Positions 607 to 25,280 of a stretch of DNA of 39,016 nucleotides are shown in pieces. The stretch is taken from the IMG/VR virus record IMGVR_UViG_3300034198_009617, positions 1-39,016 of that record. One strand, written 5' to 3'. Made by a program: the position numbers and the translations under genes. How positions within the stretch are numbered: the stretch's first letter is position 1; each line of letters starts with the position of its first letter. Source of the stretch: a virus. A model generated the notes under the pieces. That model ran no database searches. It was not told the origin of the DNA and saw only the letters and a list, made by a program, of their open reading frames with translations.

Positions 607-635
607 AGGCGCACGAAAGTGCGCCTTTTTCTTTT
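607..635 (+). terminator. Rho-independent terminator after gp32
   Basis: A perfect 8-bp stem (AGGCGCAC / GTGCGCCT) with a GAAA tetraloop at 615-618 is followed by TTTTCTTTT. It lies 24 bases after the gp32 stop and touches the last base pairs of the convergent 769-aa gene (stop at 634-636). On the minus strand the same hairpin would be followed only by CUUCCU, so termination should be strong for plus-strand transcripts and weaker for minus-strand ones. Confidence 0.9.
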
Positions 636-2943
636 AACGCATGAGAGATTCGCGTTGCAGTTGTCGCAGTGTTGCTTCGTTGTTACGAACACGAACCTCA
701 TCATTGAAGTTGTTGTTCACTACAGAAGTCTTGTTGCTGACACTCGTATTGGATGGCACAATTGTTGGAGCGGGTGTTAGTTCCTTTTTCTTCTGTGCTT
801 CCATCATGGAGATACGCTCTGTATTGTATTGGATTAGCGTCTTTCCGAGTGTGGAGTTTGGCAGTTGAGCAGGAGTGATGTTTCCGAATGTTGTATTCGG
901 TGCGCGTAGTTCGGGTGTACCGAAAGTTCCTGATAGTGATTGAAGTGTTCCCGTACTCAACGGCATGGTTTTCAGATCATTAAATACCGATGTATTGTTT
1001 ATCGAAGACACATCCGACAGTGGACCGCCAAACACTGATGGAATGGCGGATACAGGAATGGAATCCGACAGTGGACCGCCAAACACTGATGGAATGGCGG
1101 ATACAGGAATGGAACCCGATGATCCACCAAGTGCTTCTCCCACCTTTCCAGCCACCATTGCATTTGTTGCATTGGCATTGGAACCTGTTGGAACTATTGT
1201 TGCCCCCGAACCCGCAACCGTAGCAGTTTCTTTTGAGAATACTGTGTTGTATATGTCGCGGATTTTTTCTCCAAAAGTTCTCTTGATGCCTGTGGTCTTT
1301 CCTGCCTGATTGCCAGGATTGTAGTCTGTGGCAATTCCAAGCACATCTTTGATCTTCTTGGAGTAGTTTCCGCCTGTGAGTTCTTGAAGAGCCTCTGCGT
1401 ATTCTCCACCTACATCGGATATGATCTGTGCCGTTGGACGAACATCTTGTGCAGCAGTTGCCCCCATGAAAATCTCTTTGAACATTCCTGTGGCGGCATC
1501 TTTGAGATTTTCTTCCTTTTCAGTCTTCGGCTTCTTTGGAGCGGGAGTTCCTTTGACTGCTTCCTTTGCTTTTTCAAGCGATGTTGTAGTTGCAGTTATA
1601 GCATCCGTCTTTTCGGAAGCAGTCGCTTCGGTCTTTACGGCTTGAGCAACCGCTTGGGTTGCTGCCTGAACCTGTGCAGGCTGTGTGGTTGCTTCTGCTG
1701 CTTCAGTAGCCGCAGCCTTTGCAACCACAGCGGCATTCTGTGTTTCTTTTTCTTTGATCTGTTCTACCGTTTGAGAATCCGTTTCCTTCTTGCTCTCGGT
1801 GAATGTCTTTTCTATTTTTTCGAGCAAGCCAGACTTCTTTTCAGCCATGTCCTGCGTCTTTGGACCAAAAGCCTGCTCTAGCAGTTTACGAATCTCTACA
1901 GCCTCATGGTATACCGCACCCATAGGATTTTTCTTTGGGTCGTCACTTTCGGAGTCTTGCCCGTCAAGATTCGTGAATAGTTCGGATGCTTTCGTTCCGC
2001 CAATTGTTTTAGCAACTCGTTCCACGGTGTTGGTGGAATCGACAATTGCTCCTGCAACTGCCTCGTCGCTAGATTCTTGAGTGGTTGCAGCAGCAGTCTC
2101 TTCGGGGTCAAACAGTTCTTCTTCCAAGGCTCTTGCTGTTTTACCTTGTTGTGCAATTTTTTCGTAGAGTCTTCCTGAATAACTCTCAACCCGCTCTTTT
2201 CCTTCGCGGTTTTCCTTATAGTTTTGGGCAAGCAGATCCCCGACAATAGGAATGTTTCCAAGCAGCCTTTCGGGTATGCTTTGTGCATAACCCTTTAGCC
2301 GTTCCTTCACCATAGCCCCGAAGCCACTCTTTTCGCGTATAGCATCGCGCACAGGCTTTATGACTTCTTCTAGATTCTTTGCAATAGGAGACTGATCGCC
2401 TTGGCTTTGTTTTACAACATCAAGAATGAATTGTAGACGATCATAAATGCGTTTTGCTTCTTCGCGGTCTGCACTCAGCGCATCTTCAGACAGTGATACA
2501 GCCTCGCTATACAGAGTACGCGCAGCCATTCCTTCTGGTGTGCTTTTGTCGAACAGTGCTTTGTTCTTGCTGGCAAAATCTTGAATCTGCTGACGGATAC
2601 CCTTTTGCCCTTCAAGACCTACGACCATCTTTTCGATTGGTCCTGGTTCGATGCCCCGCTGCTTTCTTGCCTGCATGATGCGCTCAAGCAGTTTGAGTTC
2701 GGTCTTTACTTGAGTATTCTCTTCCTTCTTTTCCTGTGGGGTGTCGCCTGCTGGCGCGGGAACAGGAATGTCAATCGGAGCGTTTGCCGATGTAGAGGAA
2801 GTGTCCATATACGAAGGCACAGCATTAGATACTGGAGAAGTCTCCACCATTTTAGCCCGCTGCTCAAATTGCTTCAGTTTTGCAGCGTTTTGCTTTCGTG
2901 CCTTGTCTTTGGCTCGTTGGGATTTTCTGGACTTTCTTGGCAT
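634..2943 (-). CDS. 769-aa hydrophilic coiled-coil protein, probable tail tape measure (gp29 position)
   Basis: I do not recognise a named domain. The protein is long, Ala/Lys/Glu/Gln-rich and largely helical by composition, with a very basic N-terminus (MPRKSRKSQRAKDKARKQ). It has one more hydrophobic patch (about residues 225-245, ERLLGNIPIVGDLLAQNY), a central low-complexity Ala/Thr/Val/Gln stretch, and a Ser/Asn/Thr-rich C-terminal third holding a tandem 17-residue duplication near residues 611-644. The ATG has a good AGAGGA ribosome site a few bases upstream. It follows gp26 and the gp51-like frame by 30 bases, the place where other long-tailed phages keep the tape measure after the frameshifted chaperone pair. 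T4 gp29 is 590 aa; at about 1.5 angstrom per residue, 769 aa would predict a tail near 115 nm. Role inferred from context, length and composition; another structural or scaffold role is possible. Confidence 0.5.
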   Translation of the reverse strand: MPRKSRKSQRAKDKARKQNAAKLKQFEQRAKMVETSPVSNAVPSYMDTSSTSANAPIDIPVPAPAGDTPQEKKEENTQVKTELKLLERIMQARKQRGIEPGPIEKMVVGLEGQKGIRQQIQDFASKNKALFDKSTPEGMAARTLYSEAVSLSEDALSADREEAKRIYDRLQFILDVVKQSQGDQSPIAKNLEEVIKPVRDAIREKSGFGAMVKERLKGYAQSIPERLLGNIPIVGDLLAQNYKENREGKERVESYSGRLYEKIAQQGKTARALEEELFDPEETAAATTQESSDEAVAGAIVDSTNTVERVAKTIGGTKASELFTNLDGQDSESDDPKKNPMGAVYHEAVEIRKLLEQAFGPKTQDMAEKKSGLLEKIEKTFTESKKETDSQTVEQIKEKETQNAAVVAKAAATEAAEATTQPAQVQAATQAVAQAVKTEATASEKTDAITATTTSLEKAKEAVKGTPAPKKPKTEKEENLKDAATGMFKEIFMGATAAQDVRPTAQIISDVGGEYAEALQELTGGNYSKKIKDVLGIATDYNPGNQAGKTTGIKRTFGEKIRDIYNTVFSKETATVAGSGATIVPTGSNANATNAMVAGKVGEALGGSSGSIPVSAIPSVFGGPLSDSIPVSAIPSVFGGPLSDVSSINNTSVFNDLKTMPLSTGTLQSLSGTFGTPELRAPNTTFGNITPAQLPNSTLGKTLIQYNTERISMMEAQKKKELTPAPTIVPSNTSVSNKTSVVNNNFNDEVRVRNNEATLRQLQRESLMR
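1013..1114 (-). repeat. Perfect 51-bp tandem duplication inside the 769-aa gene
   Basis: Two adjacent identical 51-base units (1013-1063 and 1064-1114) differ at no position. The length is 17 codons, so the frame is kept, and each unit encodes SIPVSAIPSVFGGPLSD on the minus strand. Complete identity, including third codon positions, indicates a recent duplication or active slippage/recombination. Confidence 0.95.
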
Positions 2944-2973: not shown

Positions 2974-3102
2974 TCACTGCTTTGTGTTTCTAGCCCTCTC
3001 GCGCTCTTCCTTGAGGTGGGCAATCAGCATTTGTATGTATACCTCCCTTTCCCAAGGCATCATTTCCTCTATTTCAGACAGCGACCAGTGGTGGTGCTGC
3101 AT
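2974..3102 (-). CDS. 51: gp51-like baseplate hub assembly tail (42 aa; probably made as a gp26 frameshift fusion)
   Basis: A short frame encodes 42 residues from an ATG at 3102, with the family-like core EEMMPWEREVYIQML followed by a charged helix (KEERERARNTKQ). T4 gp51 is the catalytic hub-assembly factor encoded directly after gp26, and the Met-Pro-Trp-Glu-Arg signature is typical of C-terminal extensions of T4-like and other tail chaperones. No convincing Shine-Dalgarno sequence precedes the ATG. The same frame is open without a stop for 19 further codons upstream, back to the slippery run at the end of gp26. Expression as a -1 fusion (gp26 residues 1-234 plus 61 residues, about 295 aa) is therefore more likely than independent initiation. 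The stop TGA at 2974-2976 lies 30 bases before the next gene. The gp51 assignment rests on short motif and position. Confidence 0.65.
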   Translation of the reverse strand: MQHHHWSLSEIEEMMPWEREVYIQMLIAHLKEERERARNTKQ

Positions 3103-3152
3103 AAGGTTAAAGTTTGTCTGAAAATATGAGGCTAGATCACTGTGGCAAAGGG

Positions 3153-3860
3153 TTAGCGAAAAAAATCAGTAATGCTCTTGAACTCCACCTTTACCTTCTC
3201 TCTGCACTTGGGACAGGTGTACTCAATCCCATAGTTCAGTTTGGGTGTGGTTTCAAAGAAGTCCATGATCTGCTCGAAGCCTTTTGGAGTCAGGTTGTCG
3301 ATGAAGTTCCCCAAATCAGCATCATCTATTTCTGTCCGTGTAACTACATCTTCTCCAATGATGACCGCTTCAACACACTGCTTGGCTAGATCGAAAGCCG
3401 CTTCCACGGGAGACTTGTTTGTATCAAGATCGTGAATATTTGCATATCGCATAATCAGACTGACATCATCATCTAGTTTTATGGTTGTGTCAGATTTGGG
3501 TGTGGAAGTCTTCAATGCGACTTCATCCAATCGTACCTTGAGGGAAGTCTGTGTTTGACACTTGCCACACATGACCTGTGGCTTTGCTTCTTCACCAATC
3601 GACTTGGCACGGATCTGCAAGAAGATGTACTCCGCATCAGCAGAGCATATTTTGTAGGTGTCTATGTTTCCATTGGTGCATAGTGATATGATGCTGCTCA
3701 TGGCATCGGAAATCTGCTGAGAGTCCTGTGACTGCAAAGCCACCAAGAGGATCTTCTCCTCTTTAACGACAAACGGTCTGTACTTGGTGGTGATTCCCGA
3801 TACGGGAAGAGTGGCAGTATAGTACGGAACTTGTGCAACTGGTAGTTTCAACTTGTTCAT
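3153..3860 (-). CDS. 26: gp26-family baseplate hub assembly protein (T4_baseplate family)
   Basis: A 235-aa protein (T4 gp26 is 208 aa) of the family needed to assemble the central baseplate hub. Signatures are the N-terminal KYRPFVVKEEKILLVALQS, the region SSIISLCTNG, AEYIFLQIRAKSIGE and the C-terminal EQIMDFFETTPKL. Two CxxC pairs (Cys98/Cys101 and Cys216/Cys219) look like a four-cysteine zinc ribbon joining the two halves. I chose the ATG at 3860: an AAGG ribosome site precedes it by 8 bases, whereas the in-frame GTG at 3869 overlaps that site. The last codons GAT TTT TTT CGC TAA contain a perfect -1 slippery heptamer leading into the gp51-like frame. The gene is preceded by a short intergenic gap with a possible late promoter. 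Confidence 0.85.
   Translation of the reverse strand: MNKLKLPVAQVPYYTATLPVSGITTKYRPFVVKEEKILLVALQSQDSQQISDAMSSIISLCTNGNIDTYKICSADAEYIFLQIRAKSIGEEAKPQVMCGKCQTQTSLKVRLDEVALKTSTPKSDTTIKLDDDVSLIMRYANIHDLDTNKSPVEAAFDLAKQCVEAVIIGEDVVTRTEIDDADLGNFIDNLTPKGFEQIMDFFETTPKLNYGIEYTCPKCREKVKVEFKSITDFFR
3159..3165 (-). other. Candidate programmed -1 ribosomal frameshift site (U UUU UUU)
   Basis: Seven consecutive T on the minus strand are phased exactly as X XXY YYZ relative to gp26: gaT TTT TTT cgc taa. In the -1 frame a TGA lies immediately upstream (tga ttt ttt tcg cta), and in frame 0 the TAA comes one codon downstream. A -1 shift can therefore create a gp26-gp51 fusion only within this very small interval, and the heptamer fills it. 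No obvious close downstream stem-loop was found by eye. Confidence 0.75.
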
Positions 3861-3891
3861 AGTTTTCACCTTTTCAATAATGTGACTATTC

Positions 3892-3906: not shown

Positions 3907-4491
3907 TTACTGACCCACTATTCCTGTTAGGTTTTGTGTGTAGAAGTTTGGGGTATATTTGCGATACGCAAGGGTTATGTCTTGGCGTAGTATTTCGTTG
4001 TCTTTCTCATATCCTAGTTGAAGATCGCCAATCGACTTGGGATACACCTCTTCTACCACGGCTTCGTACACCACCGTGTCTGCCTTGGTGAGGATTCGTA
4101 TGAGCATATTGTCCGCCACATAGTTGTTGTAGTAACCCATTTTGAAGTTTTCTGGGTTGGACACCAGCGTAGTCCACGATTCAAATATACGCCGTTCGCG
4201 CATATCGGCTGATAGTATGACAGACAGAGTGAGTTCTCCGCTGTAAGTTACCTCATAAGGCATGGTTCTTGCTGGACCATAGATTCGATACTGTGAGGTG
4301 CTAAACGCTTTTCCTGGTATGTTGATGGAATCGCAGCGCAGACTGATGTTAGCCAAATCAATCGCTTTCACCGCTCTTGGTATGGATAGTATTACTTCGT
4401 ATCTGTTGGCAAAAGCCAAACCAGAATCAGCAACCGAACTCATTATGTTCATAATTGACGAGGTACGATTTGCGTTTGTAGCGTCTGGCAT
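3907..4491 (-). CDS. Tail-tube family protein (T4 gp19/gp54-like)
   Basis: A 194-aa protein with the layout of the T4 tail-tube fold, shared by the tube protein gp19 and by gp54, the baseplate protein that initiates the tube. Features are an N-terminal FANRYEVILSIPRA strand, a conserved middle NISLRCDSINIPGKAFSTSQ, and YGPARTMPYEVTYSGELTLSVILSADMRER. These are followed by the helix RRIFESWTTLV and a C-terminal strand pair EEVYPKSIGDLQLGYEKDN...QDITLAYRKY. The main tube gene normally sits after gp17/gp18, beyond this window, so this copy inside a hub/baseplate cluster more likely serves as the gp54-type tube initiator. T4 gp54 is 320 aa, so this one is short. It starts 3 bases after the preceding stop. 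Family fairly sure, gp54 role inferred. Confidence 0.7.
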   Translation of the reverse strand: MPDATNANRTSSIMNIMSSVADSGLAFANRYEVILSIPRAVKAIDLANISLRCDSINIPGKAFSTSQYRIYGPARTMPYEVTYSGELTLSVILSADMRERRIFESWTTLVSNPENFKMGYYNNYVADNMLIRILTKADTVVYEAVVEEVYPKSIGDLQLGYEKDNEILRQDITLAYRKYTPNFYTQNLTGIVGQ

Positions 4492-5094: not shown

Positions 5095-5531
5095 TGCTGT
5101 TTCTTGAATAGATCGTCTTCTGTGAGGATTTTAAACTCCCACCCTTTTGATGCGGAAACGGCTTTTGCTGCTTCCCATTTAGCCTTGTTGGTGATCCAAG
5201 TCTGTACTTCCGTAATGTAACCGCGAGTTACTTTTTTTTTCTTCTCTGGCTCGCGGCACTGTTTTTTGGGTTTGATTTCCACCAACCAAGTTTTAATCCC
5301 ATCGGGCTGTCTGATTTCTACTAGGAAGTCTACGAAGTATCGGTGCATTTTTCGATCAAGCGGACTCATGTATGGAATGACCACTTCCTCAGATGCCCAA
5401 CGCAGCACATTCGTGCTTTGATCGCACCATTTCATAAACTTTCGCTCCCACATACTCCGATACATAATCTGCGTGGGATTGCCTATGTATTTTGTGGGGT
5501 TTTGAGGTTTGAAATATCCTTTGTACGCCAT
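5091..5531 (-). CDS. 4: gp4 head completion protein (T4 gp50/gp65)
   Basis: A 146-aa protein aligning closely with T4 gp4 (150 aa), which completes DNA-filled heads before tail joining and has an endonuclease-like fold. Diagnostic blocks in order are MAYKGYFKPQNPTKYIG, IMYRSMWERKFMKWCD, LRWASEEVVIPY.SPLD, HRYFVDFLVEI, WLVEIKPKKQ, AKWEAAKA and WEFKILTEDDLF. The glutamate of SEEV, the aspartate of YFVDF and the EIKPK motif resemble the D-ExK catalytic layout of restriction-like nucleases. I chose the ATG at 5531 because MAYKGYF is the family N-terminus; the in-frame GTG at 5552 would add seven unconserved residues. The coding strand carries an A9 run (5232-5240) giving a lysine cluster. The gene is transcribed away from gp48 across a 37-base gap. 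Confidence 0.92.
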   Translation of the reverse strand: MAYKGYFKPQNPTKYIGNPTQIMYRSMWERKFMKWCDQSTNVLRWASEEVVIPYMSPLDRKMHRYFVDFLVEIRQPDGIKTWLVEIKPKKQCREPEKKKKVTRGYITEVQTWITNKAKWEAAKAVSASKGWEFKILTEDDLFKKQQ

Positions 5532-11339: not shown

Positions 11340-12137
11340 ATGGCTTGCGATAATCCACTACCGATTCCCGTGACAGACATTCCTATTCTTGGATATGCTC
11401 TGTCACATGATATTCTTAAGAATCCACACAAGGAGTCTCTTACCACCACACTCAAGGCAACGGATCTAAATATCGAAAAACTCACTCGCTTGATCGGATT
11501 ACTATCTCCAAACGGACTTCCCAATCCTTTGGTGGAAGTGTTTACCCCCTTGAAGACCGCGATGGAATCATCTAGGACTGCTCTCACGGGATTTCAGACA
11601 GAAATCAACACTCTATTGAGTCCGCAGAACCTTATGTCTTCTATCGGTCTTTTGAGTCTATATGAATCTGCTTCGTGTGTCTTGGGCAAGGAGAATGTGG
11701 ATGCTGTTACTGGTTTGGGTGTGTTGAATCAGGTTGGCGGAAATGCAATCTACAATGTTTTGAATGCTCACGGCAGAACTTCTGTGCTGCTTGACAAATT
11801 GACTAGTCCCGATCTTGTTTCTGCCATAGCAAGCACATCGTATCCGTTTGATGAAAATGACCTGCGATCTCTTGTTCCAAATTACAAGGCGGATCTTGAG
11901 AACTCCAAGAATATTCTTACTGCTGCTACTCTTGGAATGGATAATGTCAGAAGCACGGGCGAAGCCCTTCGCGCCAGAGCGTTGAATTTTGCCATACAGT
12001 ACTCTATCGCCAATTTTTTCAAAGACATTGTGCAGAATCAAAAAGGTGCGTTTCCAACTAGCCTAAAAGAAAATGTCATAACGCCAGACTTTATCAATGT
12101 TGTAAAGGCAAACACCCCAAAACTACCAGGAACCTGA
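11340..12137 (+). CDS. Unknown 265-aa baseplate-cluster protein
   Basis: No family was recognised. The protein begins MACDNPLPIPVTDIPILGYALSHDIL and is then mostly predicted helix with Leu/Ser/Thr-rich amphipathic segments (for example LNIEKLTRLIGLLSP, PLKTAMESSRTALTGFQTEINTLL, ALRARALNFAIQYSIANFFKDIVQN). There is no signal peptide, no clear transmembrane segment and no catalytic-looking motif. It lies two bases after the PAAR gene and one base before the GAF-like gene, in an otherwise structural operon. A virion or baseplate-assembly role is plausible from context only. Candidates are a hub assembly factor (T4 gp28 function is otherwise not visible here) or a helical protein inside the hub. 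Confidence 0.5.
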   Translation: MACDNPLPIPVTDIPILGYALSHDILKNPHKESLTTTLKATDLNIEKLTRLIGLLSPNGLPNPLVEVFTPLKTAMESSRTALTGFQTEINTLLSPQNLMSSIGLLSLYESASCVLGKENVDAVTGLGVLNQVGGNAIYNVLNAHGRTSVLLDKLTSPDLVSAIASTSYPFDENDLRSLVPNYKADLENSKNILTAATLGMDNVRSTGEALRARALNFAIQYSIANFFKDIVQNQKGAFPTSLKENVITPDFINVVKANTPKLPGT

Positions 12138-20363: not shown

Positions 20364-23300
20364 ATGGCATACGATCCTAGCATTTTCAACATCAGCCCGT
20401 ACTATGACGATTTTGACGCACAGAAAGCGTTTCTGCGGGTGTTGTTCAAGCCTGGCTACGCTTTGCAAGCCCGTGAATTGACACAGGCACAGACGATTCT
20501 TCAGAATCAAATTTCAAAGATTGGTGACAATCTGTTCAAGGACGGATCGCGGGTTGTCGGTGGAAACATCTCCATTCGCACCACCTCGTTCATTATGATG
20601 TCTGTGGATGCACTGAATGCTTACGGTATTTACGATTATTCTGCGCTGATGGGCGCGATCCTAAAGACCTCTGATTCGGCTATCAGCGCGAAAGTTGTTC
20701 ATTATGTGAATCCAGATTCTGCAACAGACAACAAACTTGTGCTGGTTGTGGATTATACTTCAGGAACTGCTTTTGCAGACAACCAATTTACGATTACTCT
20801 TGCAGACGGAACTCTGCTAGTAGGTGGCGTGTTTGGTACTGAAAACGGAAACTCGTGGAACAGCGGAAAGTGCAAACTTATCACCGTTGGCGGTGGTGTG
20901 TTCTATGTTGATGGTTTTTTCGTTACAACAAGCGATCAGACTTTCTCTCCGTACTACAGCAACACCACAGGAAAGTACCGCGACTTTCAGTTTGGTACGG
21001 ATTTTGCCGAGTTGAATAAAAAGGTTGGCTTCTCTCTGTATCGCAACTATGTTACCGATCAAGAAGACAATACTCTCCGTGATACTGCAATTGGTTCGTA
21101 CAACTACAATGCGCCTGGTGCTGACCGCTACAAGATTGAACTCACACTCGCACAGGCTGATCTAACCGAAACTCCCACTGATTTTCTTGAACTTATCCGT
21201 TTTGAAGACGGCACGATCACCAAGAAGGTCGAACGGATCACCTATGGAGAGATTGAAAACACTCTTGCTCGCCGTACATATGATGAATCGGGTTCTTATA
21301 CGGTTCGACCTTTCGATGTAAGTATCAAGAGCGCGTCCGATGAAACAATGTTCAACATCGTGCTTGGAACAGGCAAAGCCTATGTGCTTGGGCATGAACT
21401 TGAGTCTGCGTATCCACAGACACTTTCCGTGGACAAGGCACGAACCACGGTAGACGAGAACAACATTTTCTTGGATTTTTCCGTTGGAAACATCTATGGA
21501 GTCACAATCGGAAATGCCACTGATTACGGAACTACATTCGGCAGCGGAATCACTACGGTAAACGGTGGTGCTGCTGCAATCGAATTCATCAATAACGCAG
21601 GAACTCGGACTGCTACTGGTTTTGTTCACGGAGCAATACCGTCTGGTTCAACCAGTGGATATCAGTACAATCTGTACCTGTATGGAGTTTCGGGAGCGGT
21701 TGCGGTAGGCAACATCGGAACCATTAAATCTGTTGGTGATGGAACCATACTTGGAAAGGCAACCGTGACCTCTGCTGGAGTGTCTACGGCAAATCAGAGT
21801 TTGGTGTTTGAACTCAAGCCATCGTATGCCGTTAACGCTATCAAGAACTTGAAGTTTACAGGCAAGGCAACAAGCGATGACCTGACAGATTTCTTCACTT
21901 ACGGCAATAGCGTAATGACAATTACGCTTACCATCAATGAGTTTTCTGAAACTCTGAAGGCTGAAACAGGAACGGTATATCGCTTTCCTCTGAACCGCGA
22001 TATCTCTTCTGTGATATCCGAAATTCAACTAGTCAACTCCGATGGACTTGCTCTGCAACTTGATTCTGCATTTGTCACCGCTCAAGGAACGACAGATGGT
22101 AGCAGTGTAACACTCAATATAACAAACAATGCAGACAATCGTCTTGCGGGATTCACCGAAGGCGGAATCCGCGTGACAATGCCAATTGTCTACGATCAAA
22201 GCAATCTTCAGGACAGCACTGGTTACTACAGATGGAAGCAATTGGTTATTGCTCCAGAAGAAAACATCCTTGTCAGCGACAAGATTTCTGAAAACGGACG
22301 AAGCATTTTTGAACTGTCTCGCGTCGATGTGTTCTCCGTTAGCAGCGTAACCATCAGAAACGCGGTCACCGCAGAAACATCGGATGTCACCGATTACTTT
22401 GAGTACGATGACGGTCAGCGCGAGGCTTATTACACATACGGACGATTGGTTGTCAAGCCATCGTATGTTGCTGAAGTTGCTTCGTGGGATGCGGAAGATA
22501 CGCTCACGGTTTCGTATTCGTATTTCGAACATCGTGGTCTTGCGTCTGCTCCATTCGTAGGAAAGTTGTCGTATCCCGACATTTCGTATGGTGCTATTCC
22601 GCTCTTTACGAATACACGAACAGGAAACACTGTATCTTTGGCGAACTGCTTGGATTTCCGCCATGTACATCCTGATTCGTCGTTTGTTATGAAGCCATAC
22701 GGAACCTCTGAATTCTCCATTGGTGAATTCACAGCCACCGAAGTTTCGTATGATCACTATCTGCCGCGAATCGACAAGGTGTGTCTGCGTAACAATCCTA
22801 CCGATAATTCGGCGCAGTTCTTCGTGGTTTCGGGAACTCCCGACCTATCTCCATCAACTCCCGCTGATGTGGAAGATGCACTTACGATATGCACACTCTC
22901 TGTTCCCGCATATACCCATAGCCCATCTAATGTAAGCGTTACACAGGTTGATACTCAACGCTTTACGATGGCTGATATCGGTAAGATACAGAAGCGTGTG
23001 GATGATATTGAAGTATTCACCAAGTTGTCGTTGAGCGAAGCAGAGATTGAAGCCCGTTCACTAAAGACATCTTCTGCTGCAACAGAACCCCTGAAGACAT
23101 CCGTTTACTCTGATGAATTCTTTGGTCATTCTGTTGCCGATGTAAGTTCTGGTGAGAATATCTGCTCTGTTGATTATGAGTGGGGAGAATTGCGTCCGTT
23201 CTTCACAGAGTACAAGCCTACCCTCACCATTACCGAACTGTCTGGCACTACTCTTTCAGCAGATGGTATTATTACTCTGAACTACAGCGGTGTTACCTAT

Positions 23301-25280
23301 ATCGAAAACAAGCAGTACACCAAAACAGTAAAGGTCAATCCATCCAATACTTTGAACTGGCTTGGATTCATGCAGTTGTCTACATCGGTGTCTCCGTTCT
23401 TTGATCTTGAGTACCGTCCTGTTGTGAAGACAAACTCTCTATCGGAGAATGACAACTGGCTTTCGTCCAATGCAAACAATGCCCGCGGATTTGGCACACA
23501 ATGGAACGATTGGGAAAGTCTGTGGACGGGTATTCCGCAGACACCCGAAGAGCAAGACGAAATCAACAAGAGAACATTCGAGGTTCCCCATTCAAACAAC
23601 TCTTCGGTGATTCCTAATATCAATTCGGGAAGCGTCCATGTTGGATCTAGCCGTTCTGTCGATACACTAAATCAGAAGACCAGCAACTTTATTCGTCAAG
23701 CACGAATGAAGAATCGCATCAAGACTGTTGTTGGATCTAGGGTGGTTGATCGCAGCGTTGTGCCGTATGTTCCCTCGTCTGTGATTGGAGTTACTGCCCA
23801 CGGTCTAAAGCCCAACACTGGTGTATCTGTTTACTTTGATGGTGATACAGTCATAAGCGGAATCACTACAGATTTTACGGGAACGGTGTCTGGAGTAACT
23901 TTCAGCATTCCTGCGGGTCAGTTTCTTGCAGGCGAGAAAGTTGTCCGTATCAGCGATTCTGCTTCTGCGGAGAATGCTACCACTGCTGCCGAGGTGGTGT
24001 ACTACTGCACGGGAATTCTTAATCAGCGTGATTCTGGATGTGTATCGACTCGTCCTCCTGTTTTGCGCCGCCGTACTGTTGGTAGCGAAGGAATCGTCAA
24101 GGATCCATTCAATGTGGATCTGGCGTATGATGTTCTTGAAAATTCAGCGTGGTGCGATCCACTGGCGCAGACATTCTTTGTTGACCGCAAGGCTAATCCC
24201 GAAGGCATATTCCTGAAGAGCCTTACTCTCTTCTTTGCCACAAAGGACAGTAGCCTGCCTGTCACGGTTCAGATTCGTCCAACCGTGAATGGCTATCCTT
24301 CACCGTCCGTTGTTGTTCCGTTCAGCACAGTCACCAAACAGGCTTCTGCTGTGAATGCTGATGCAAACTCTCCATCGGGAACGGTGTTCAAGTTCAGCAG
24401 CCCTGTGTTCCTTGAGTCGGGTGAGTACGCCATCTGCATTATTGCAAACAGCAATCTGTATTCGCTCTATGCTGTTGGCAGTTCAATAAACACAACTGCA
24501 AACGGTGATGCTATTGCGGGACGCGGTGGAAACAATCAGCGTGTCGGAACCCTGTATTTCCCGCAGGGAATCGGACCAGCAGTTCAGGACAACAACACCG
24601 ACCTGATGTTCACGATGGAACGCTGCGTATTCATCGGCAACAACAATACGGTTACCTTCAGCACAACCAACTGCTCGGCAAAGCAAATAATCAAGTTTGC
24701 GGCATCCGAAGTCAGCCCCGTTGGATGCAGAATCACCCGTAGAGTAGAAAATACAGCCATTGCAAACAATGAGAACCTGTATTTGAGGAATATGCTTGAG
24801 AACTCTCCGCAGTTGCGTTATACGCTGTCGAACGGTGCAAGCACGGCAGTCAGTCCGATCTTGGATACGCAGACCCTGTATGGGGTAGGCATTGAGATGC
24901 GTCTGAATGATACTACGCCGTCATCGTATGTTTCACGGGTGGTAACACTTGATCCCGATGTTGTTTCGAATGGATTGCAGGTGTTCCTTGACGCAAATCT
25001 TCCCAGTACAGCACAGATTGCAGTATACTTCCGTTGTTCTCAGACGGGAGAGAGCGATATCTTCACGAAGCCGTGGACTGCTCTTGATCGCAAAAATGCG
25101 TCTTTCACCAGTACATCGGAACTAGACTTCCGTGAGGCAGTATATCGTTTCTACGATGCCAACAAGGAGTTCAAGTCTTATCAGGTCAAGGTTGATATGT
25201 GGTCTGAGAACGGCTCTTCTGCTACTTACTATGAAACTCCTGCATTGAAAAATGTCAGGACGATCAGTTTCTATCTGTAA
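20364..25280 (+). CDS. Giant 1638-aa DUF4815-type baseplate/fibre-connector protein (gp10 position)
   Basis: The largest protein in the window. The N-terminus (AYDPSIFNISPYYDDFDAQKAFLRVLFKPGYALQARELTQAQTILQNQISKIGDNLFKDGSRVVGG) is the hallmark of the DUF4815 structural proteins of aquatic T4-like phages. Beta-rich repeats follow, then a short helical stretch (about 870-905, IGKIQKRVDDIEVFTKLSLSEAEIEARSL). A conserved GFGTQWNDWESLWTG sits near residue 1055, and a late block DPLAQTFFVDRKANPEGIFLKSLTLFFATKDSSLPVTVQIRPTVNGYPS near 1275. It lies directly after gp8, where T4 has gp9-gp10-gp11-gp12, none of which I can find. It probably forms the outer baseplate pin or the socket for the downstream adhesins. 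AGAGGA ribosome site upstream. Confidence 0.75.
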   Translation: MAYDPSIFNISPYYDDFDAQKAFLRVLFKPGYALQARELTQAQTILQNQISKIGDNLFKDGSRVVGGNISIRTTSFIMMSVDALNAYGIYDYSALMGAILKTSDSAISAKVVHYVNPDSATDNKLVLVVDYTSGTAFADNQFTITLADGTLLVGGVFGTENGNSWNSGKCKLITVGGGVFYVDGFFVTTSDQTFSPYYSNTTGKYRDFQFGTDFAELNKKVGFSLYRNYVTDQEDNTLRDTAIGSYNYNAPGADRYKIELTLAQADLTETPTDFLELIRFEDGTITKKVERITYGEIENTLARRTYDESGSYTVRPFDVSIKSASDETMFNIVLGTGKAYVLGHELESAYPQTLSVDKARTTVDENNIFLDFSVGNIYGVTIGNATDYGTTFGSGITTVNGGAAAIEFINNAGTRTATGFVHGAIPSGSTSGYQYNLYLYGVSGAVAVGNIGTIKSVGDGTILGKATVTSAGVSTANQSLVFELKPSYAVNAIKNLKFTGKATSDDLTDFFTYGNSVMTITLTINEFSETLKAETGTVYRFPLNRDISSVISEIQLVNSDGLALQLDSAFVTAQGTTDGSSVTLNITNNADNRLAGFTEGGIRVTMPIVYDQSNLQDSTGYYRWKQLVIAPEENILVSDKISENGRSIFELSRVDVFSVSSVTIRNAVTAETSDVTDYFEYDDGQREAYYTYGRLVVKPSYVAEVASWDAEDTLTVSYSYFEHRGLASAPFVGKLSYPDISYGAIPLFTNTRTGNTVSLANCLDFRHVHPDSSFVMKPYGTSEFSIGEFTATEVSYDHYLPRIDKVCLRNNPTDNSAQFFVVSGTPDLSPSTPADVEDALTICTLSVPAYTHSPSNVSVTQVDTQRFTMADIGKIQKRVDDIEVFTKLSLSEAEIEARSLKTSSAATEPLKTSVYSDEFFGHSVADVSSGENICSVDYEWGELRPFFTEYKPTLTITELSGTTLSADGIITLNYSGVTYIENKQYTKTVKVNPSNTLNWLGFMQLSTSVSPFFDLEYRPVVKTNSLSENDNWLSSNANNARGFGTQWNDWESLWTGIPQTPEEQDEINKRTFEVPHSNNSSVIPNINSGSVHVGSSRSVDTLNQKTSNFIRQARMKNRIKTVVGSRVVDRSVVPYVPSSVIGVTAHGLKPNTGVSVYFDGDTVISGITTDFTGTVSGVTFSIPAGQFLAGEKVVRISDSASAENATTAAEVVYYCTGILNQRDSGCVSTRPPVLRRRTVGSEGIVKDPFNVDLAYDVLENSAWCDPLAQTFFVDRKANPEGIFLKSLTLFFATKDSSLPVTVQIRPTVNGYPSPSVVVPFSTVTKQASAVNADANSPSGTVFKFSSPVFLESGEYAICIIANSNLYSLYAVGSSINTTANGDAIAGRGGNNQRVGTLYFPQGIGPAVQDNNTDLMFTMERCVFIGNNNTVTFSTTNCSAKQIIKFAASEVSPVGCRITRRVENTAIANNENLYLRNMLENSPQLRYTLSNGASTAVSPILDTQTLYGVGIEMRLNDTTPSSYVSRVVTLDPDVVSNGLQVFLDANLPSTAQIAVYFRCSQTGESDIFTKPWTALDRKNASFTSTSELDFREAVYRFYDANKEFKSYQVKVDMWSENGSSATYYETPALKNVRTISFYL

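Follow-up and report, generated by a model that had tools for sequence, protein, structure and literature searches.

The gp26/gp51 locus of a T4-like phage is very probably a pair of tail assembly chaperone (TAC) genes that relies on programmed -1 ribosomal frameshifting for its expression, a reading drawn from comparison of sequences. The window, that is, the whole stretch of DNA analysed, is 39,016 bases long, comes from a virus record, and holds T4-like tail genes. Most ribosomes that translate the gp26-type gene would stop at its TAA codon and release gp26, the short chaperone or TAC-N. A minority would slip by -1 while tRNA-Phe occupies both sites on U UUU UUU; the relatives and the gene order point to this slip and its efficiency. 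The slipped ribosomes would read 61 further codons and make a gp26-gp51 fusion (TAC-NC) that continues as ...DFF-SLTLCHSDLASYFQTNFNLMQHHHWSLSEIEEMMPWERE... across the junction. By the same relatives and gene order, the chaperones would hold the tape measure and recruit tube subunits in the manner of lambda gpG/gpGT.

The locus and predicted slippery site in the window

On the minus strand, the genes follow one another in the direction of transcription as gp4 (head closure), gp2 (DNA end protector), tail tube, gp26, the gp51 stretch, and a gene of 769 codons, while gp48, gp53, and more tail genes lie on the plus strand. Profile searches assign gp26 to Pfam T4_baseplate (1.4e-52) and phrog_150 (7e-56), and it falls within the T4 gp26 family (PF12322), scoring 179 bits against a curated cut-off of 24.5 and covering positions 2-219 of 219. 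The arrangement is the gene order of a TAC pair, with two overlapping frames, the tail tube gene upstream, and a gene downstream that is putatively the tape measure by its position. With gp26/gp51 placed after the tail tube gene and before the putative tape measure gene, the parallel to lambda G/GT drawn in the initial annotation is the right one. The coordinates of these features are collected in Table 1.

Table 1. Features of the gp26/gp51 region, in window coordinates.
Feature	Position	Strand	Details
gp26-type gene, read as the short chaperone TAC-N	3153..3869	-	238 aa from GTG 3869, or 235 aa from ATG 3860
gp26 stop codon TAA, frame 0	3153..3155	-	Read in sequence
Predicted slippery heptamer T TTT TTT	3159..3165	-	Phased with gp26, one codon ahead of its stop
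TGA in -1 frame	3166..3168	-	Immediately 5' of heptamer; not conserved in relatives
-1 frame extension, predicted TAC-C (gp51)	2974..3159	-	61 codons and stop; phrog_634 match
gp51-like ORF from its own ATG	2974..3102	-	42 aa; start without Shine-Dalgarno
Long imperfect stem, predicted; candidate stimulator	3041..3157	-	CCCUUU/AAAGGG arm begins 6 nt past heptamer
Putative tape measure gene, by position only	634..2943	-	769 aa
Tail tube protein gene, upstream neighbour of gp26	3907..4491	-	phrog_45 tail tube, 4e-36

The 3' end of gp26 reads ...ATT ACT GAT TTT TTT CGC TAA on the minus strand. As the initial annotation proposed, the seven T at 3165-3159 are phased as a -1 heptamer and have the canonical in-phase X XXY YYZ form of a -1 frameshift site. 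Its claim that the frame stays open for 61 codons past the slip also holds; the open codons span 3159-2977 and end at a TGA (2976-2974). The predicted fusion of gp26 and gp51 is 295 or 298 residues long, with the junction ...ITDFF-SLTLCH.... The TGA that adjoins the run upstream in the -1 frame, on which the initial annotation laid weight, is present at 3168-3166 but no longer carries significance, for it is found at just 19 of 275 junctions and is a by-product of 'xxT GAT' rather than a general feature.

Only two further in-phase copies of TTTTTTN are present in the 25 genes of the window (12,387 codons), and this rarity puts the chance of its falling within the three or four codons where a -1 shift works at about 0.05-0.1%. 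Both of the others are TTTTTTC, at codon 225 of 266 in the gene at 11340-12137 and at codon 184 in the gene at 20364-25280, and are probably incidental. A run of nine T at window 5232-5240 is a possible slippage site of its own; on the gp4 coding strand it reads A9, and A AAA AAA is in phase there at codon 105.

That a tape measure gene follows the pair, which the initial annotation thought likely, is supported by its position and by four relatives, in that the gene at the equivalent place in KVP40-like, phiM7, Cr30, and P-HM2 phages gives partial tape-measure matches (1e-5 to 1e-10). Family searches with the 769-residue protein of the window itself returned no match. The gene contains a 51-bp tandem duplication (window 1012-1119; 98% identical, 2.1 copies) that adds 17 residues.

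The junction and the gp51 frame among relatives

Junctions between gp26 and gp51 were gathered from IMG/VR and phage records, which gave 275 distinct examples. One alignment of gp26 from eight phages was too divergent for the contig scan, and closer alignments were used in its place; scans for close relatives with KVP40-type and with Stenotrophomonas proteins found 2 loci each. T TTT TTN is phased with gp26 near its stop, mostly one codon before it, and gp51 is in the -1 frame, at 271 of the 275 junctions. The heptamer and its phase are thus conserved, the outcome that the frameshift proposed in the initial annotation calls for. After clustering, the in-phase heptamer is present in 192 of 195 clusters at 80% protein identity and in 78 of 80 at 60%. 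It is also found in pf16, PhiW-14, phiAS5, VmeM-32, EniLVp02, ORM_20, Melnitz-3, and Rhizobium phage RHph_I1_9 (Pootjesviridae). At three loci (L176, L191, and L204), it lies eight codons ahead of the gp26 stop, so the two frames overlap for longer than elsewhere.

T TTT TTN is lacking in T4, where the genes are separate, in an Agtrevirus, which has A ATT TTC instead, in a single contig that reads G TTT TTT, and at locus L334. The last is near-identical to Stenotrophomonas phage Ps15, and its gp26 is out of frame past the junction, probably through an indel in the record. In the Ackermannviridae the heptamer is absent, and the -1 relation of gp51 and a 'T TTY' before the stop are kept. Loci of this family and its relatives (L335, L336, L337, L338, L344, L346, and L010) have gp51 in the -1 frame and no X XXY YYZ. 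Their gp26 ends are of the types GAG ATT TTC ATT TAA, TCA CTT TTC AAG TAA, and GAG GCT TTC ATG TAA, where the T-preceded Phe codon would allow a single tRNA to slip from UUC to UUU.

Synonymous codon choice at the site is biased toward T. Across the 192 clusters, which were picked for carrying the heptamer with just 3 of 195 excluded, the codon ahead of the Phe pair ends in T in every one, against 114 expected from the codon use of the genes themselves, and the first Phe is TTT in every one, against a background of 75%. The second codon of the heptamer varies among TTC, TTT, TTA, and TTG, which changes the amino acid and retains the run.

Past the gp26 stop, nearly all junctions keep the -1 frame open for about 50-65 codons, whereas the +1 frame soon meets a stop. 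Third positions of the -1 frame carry an excess of substitutions that is already seen between the gp26 stop and the ATG of gp51, a pattern by which the frame upstream of this ATG is under protein-level selection. The ORF that starts at the ATG matches phrog_634 at 6e-17 (63 bits), and the whole -1 frame of 3168-2974 matches it at 4e-30 (99.6 bits; profile positions 54-118 of 121). Taken together, the conserved heptamer, the position of gp51 in the -1 frame, the T-biased synonymous codons, and the selection on the -1 frame exclude chance.

T4 gp51, a protein of 249 residues, matches phrog_150 along its whole length (positions 13-280 of 282) and aligns with the predicted fusion with no gap across the junction (VFKLLVNPDEIFTFYQINH with FFSLTLCHSDLASYFQTNF). 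The gap-free alignment indicates that T4 encodes the long form as a separate in-frame gene, in agreement with Sullivan et al. 2010 (PMC3037559), who noted that cyanophage gp51 is without the first ~200 residues. The AlphaFold model of gp26 has a pLDDT of 93, and its best matches among viral predicted structures are hub assembly chaperones of the gp26 type, together with a T4-type gp51 (phage ZZ1). Against the PDB, the model gave no match at E <= 0.001, a search whose PDB copy may hold no close enough TAC structure, and sequence and fold searches of the PDB with gp26 found no similarity to solved structures.

Candidate stimulatory elements and possible other routes to gp51

Elements that resemble ribosomal stimulators in their position surround the predicted slip site in the relatives. 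A Shine-Dalgarno-like element, UUG GAG GGA, which encodes Leu-Glu-Gly of gp26, lies 7-11 nt upstream of the heptamer and stands out from synonymous shuffles (z -10 to -16); GAG makes up 97 of 144 Glu codons at this position, compared with 25% elsewhere. Segments of 50 nt directly 3' of the heptamer fold better than their neighbours (mean z -1.3). In 47 cyanophage-type sequences, a hairpin of 11 pairs begins 5 nt past the heptamer, and 93% of its cells pair. One of its pairs is U-A in 35 sequences, G-C in 6, and A-U in 3, where the last base of an Ala codon and an E/V/A codon vary in concert, and its covariation score is above that of all 500 shuffles.

The window was found to have neither a suitably spaced Shine-Dalgarno-like motif ahead of the heptamer (-2.1 kcal/mol) nor a short downstream hairpin of the cyanophage kind. 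The candidate stem covers 119 nt with a folding energy of -38.5 kcal/mol (z -3.0 to -3.6), a feature spotted post hoc and seen in the window only; the most extreme fold of 315 sampled stem-sized segments falls at this stem. Shift efficiency in the window may consequently be low, or may rest on the run of seven U and the longer stem. The Shine-Dalgarno-like and downstream elements are weaker at T TTT TTT sites than at T TTT TTC sites, which suggests that seven U's may need less help from stimulators. On balance, we lean slightly toward the view that the T4-like TAC site is a composite, made of a Shine-Dalgarno-like motif in the conserved Leu-Glu-Gly, T TTT TTY, and in some lineages a compensated hairpin, and that lineages swap these parts. 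By this account, the window would have T7 and perhaps a longer stem in place of the Shine-Dalgarno-like motif and short hairpin, the Ackermannviridae would have lost the heptamer and kept the -1 frame, and T4 would have gone to two separate genes.

An alternative to frameshifting is a separate gp51 protein, whose synthesis begins at its own start or by reinitiation once ribosomes have terminated at the gp26 stop, with the T run incidental. Annotators' records do give gp51 a start of its own, the start overlaps the stop in several phages (TAATG in ValKK3), and up to 95 of the 192 clusters have an ATG at most 4 codons past the slip site. The window also has GAGG a few nucleotides upstream of an ATG in its MMPWERE core (-6.0 kcal/mol). 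However, the first ATG in the window is ~50 nt beyond the gp26 stop, a distance that makes reinitiation unlikely there, and the best Shine-Dalgarno duplex at this gp51 ATG is +0.7 kcal/mol, which bears out the earlier observation that it lacks a ribosome site. Any gp51 start with a strong Shine-Dalgarno occurs in just 12 of the 192 clusters, compared with half of the gp26 starts. Separate initiation is also at odds with the protein-level selection that the -1 frame shows ahead of the ATG and with T4 gp51, which holds the same stretch in frame, and it leaves the conserved in-phase heptamer and the T-biased synonymous codons unexplained. It is very improbable as the explanation of the locus, and reinitiation is a possible side route in the clusters with an ATG close behind the stop, about half of them.

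Frameshifting by the ribosome also has to be set against two other accounts of the T run. RNA polymerase can slip on runs of seven or more identical bases, so transcription of the T run could yield mRNAs with one extra U, equivalent to a -1 shift. This account is less probable still, since most relatives have T6 only (TTTTTTC in 112 of 192 clusters) and the run is strictly codon-phased, with features placed like ribosomal stimulators, and polymerase slippage needs neither these features nor the phase. A homopolymer error of sequencing or assembly, by which the two frames would really be one gene, is suggested by the presence of a 7-T run and has a negligible probability. A contig of 149,886 bases repeats the stretch at 99.97% identity (2 mismatches in 6,714 bases, no gap) and keeps the run ungapped, so the run is not a slip peculiar to the window contig. 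Hundreds of contigs, and isolates with finished genomes as well, share the two-frame layout, which leads us to reject this error; the isolate genomes refute it. The 149,886-base relative has one gp26 match and one gp51 match; a second, separate T4-like gp51 gene was found neither there nor in the window, neither of which is a confirmed complete genome.

Relation to known tail assembly chaperones

Genes 26 and 51 are reportedly the ones meant in the work of Vladimirov, Gautam and Davidson on T4-like TACs. Papers that cite this work (Vladimirov, Gautam and Davidson 2022, Virology 566:9-15) describe short and long forms as separate genes in some T4-like phages, and one of them (PMC12846349) refers to poly-T slippery sequences as known in TAC-N genes of T4-like phages. 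According to these sources, the frameshifted TAC arrangement in T4-like phages was already proposed by Vladimirov et al. 2022, and the assignment of gp26 as TAC-N and gp51 as TAC-NC fits both the window and T4 here. Unlike those phages, the window is an unannotated environmental contig. New detail may lie in the composite stimulators.

Lambda has the slippery site G GGA AAG. Lambda gpG/gpGT (Xu, Hendrix and Duda 2004) and other siphophage TACs resemble the gp26/gp51 pair in having a short and a long product from one start, a -1 shift near the 3' end, and a locus flanked by the genes for the tail tube and the tape measure. Unlike lambda, the window phage is contractile-tailed, and no sequence or solved-structure similarity between the two was found. 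The TAC locus of Vandenendeviridae/Andersonviridae (phage Adele, PMC12846349) is also similar, with a -1 shift at a T run (GTTTTT) that ends TAC-N and a -1 frame that is open in all genomes, but it belongs to other phage families and its T run is shorter.

T4 genes 26 and 51 correspond by homology to the short and long forms, respectively, but are two separate genes on opposite strands, with no heptamer. Their products are listed as hub assembly chaperones, and gp51 is required for assembly and is not in the particle (PMC3004832). The initial annotation suggested that hub assembly uses a frameshifted gp26-gp51 product; the predicted fusion stands, and it is better named a TAC-NC that would serve the tape measure than a hub component.

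For a long time, T4 gp26 and gp51 appeared in lists as hub proteins whose role was unclear. Read as a frameshift pair, gp26/gp51 would be the T4-like counterpart of lambda G/GT, and most T4-like phages are predicted to have a single long chaperone at each tail locus. In many records, gp51 is annotated as a gene of its own or is overlooked, which leaves the long protein out of the databases that proteomics relies on. The stimulator elements of the relatives are ready targets for reporter tests.
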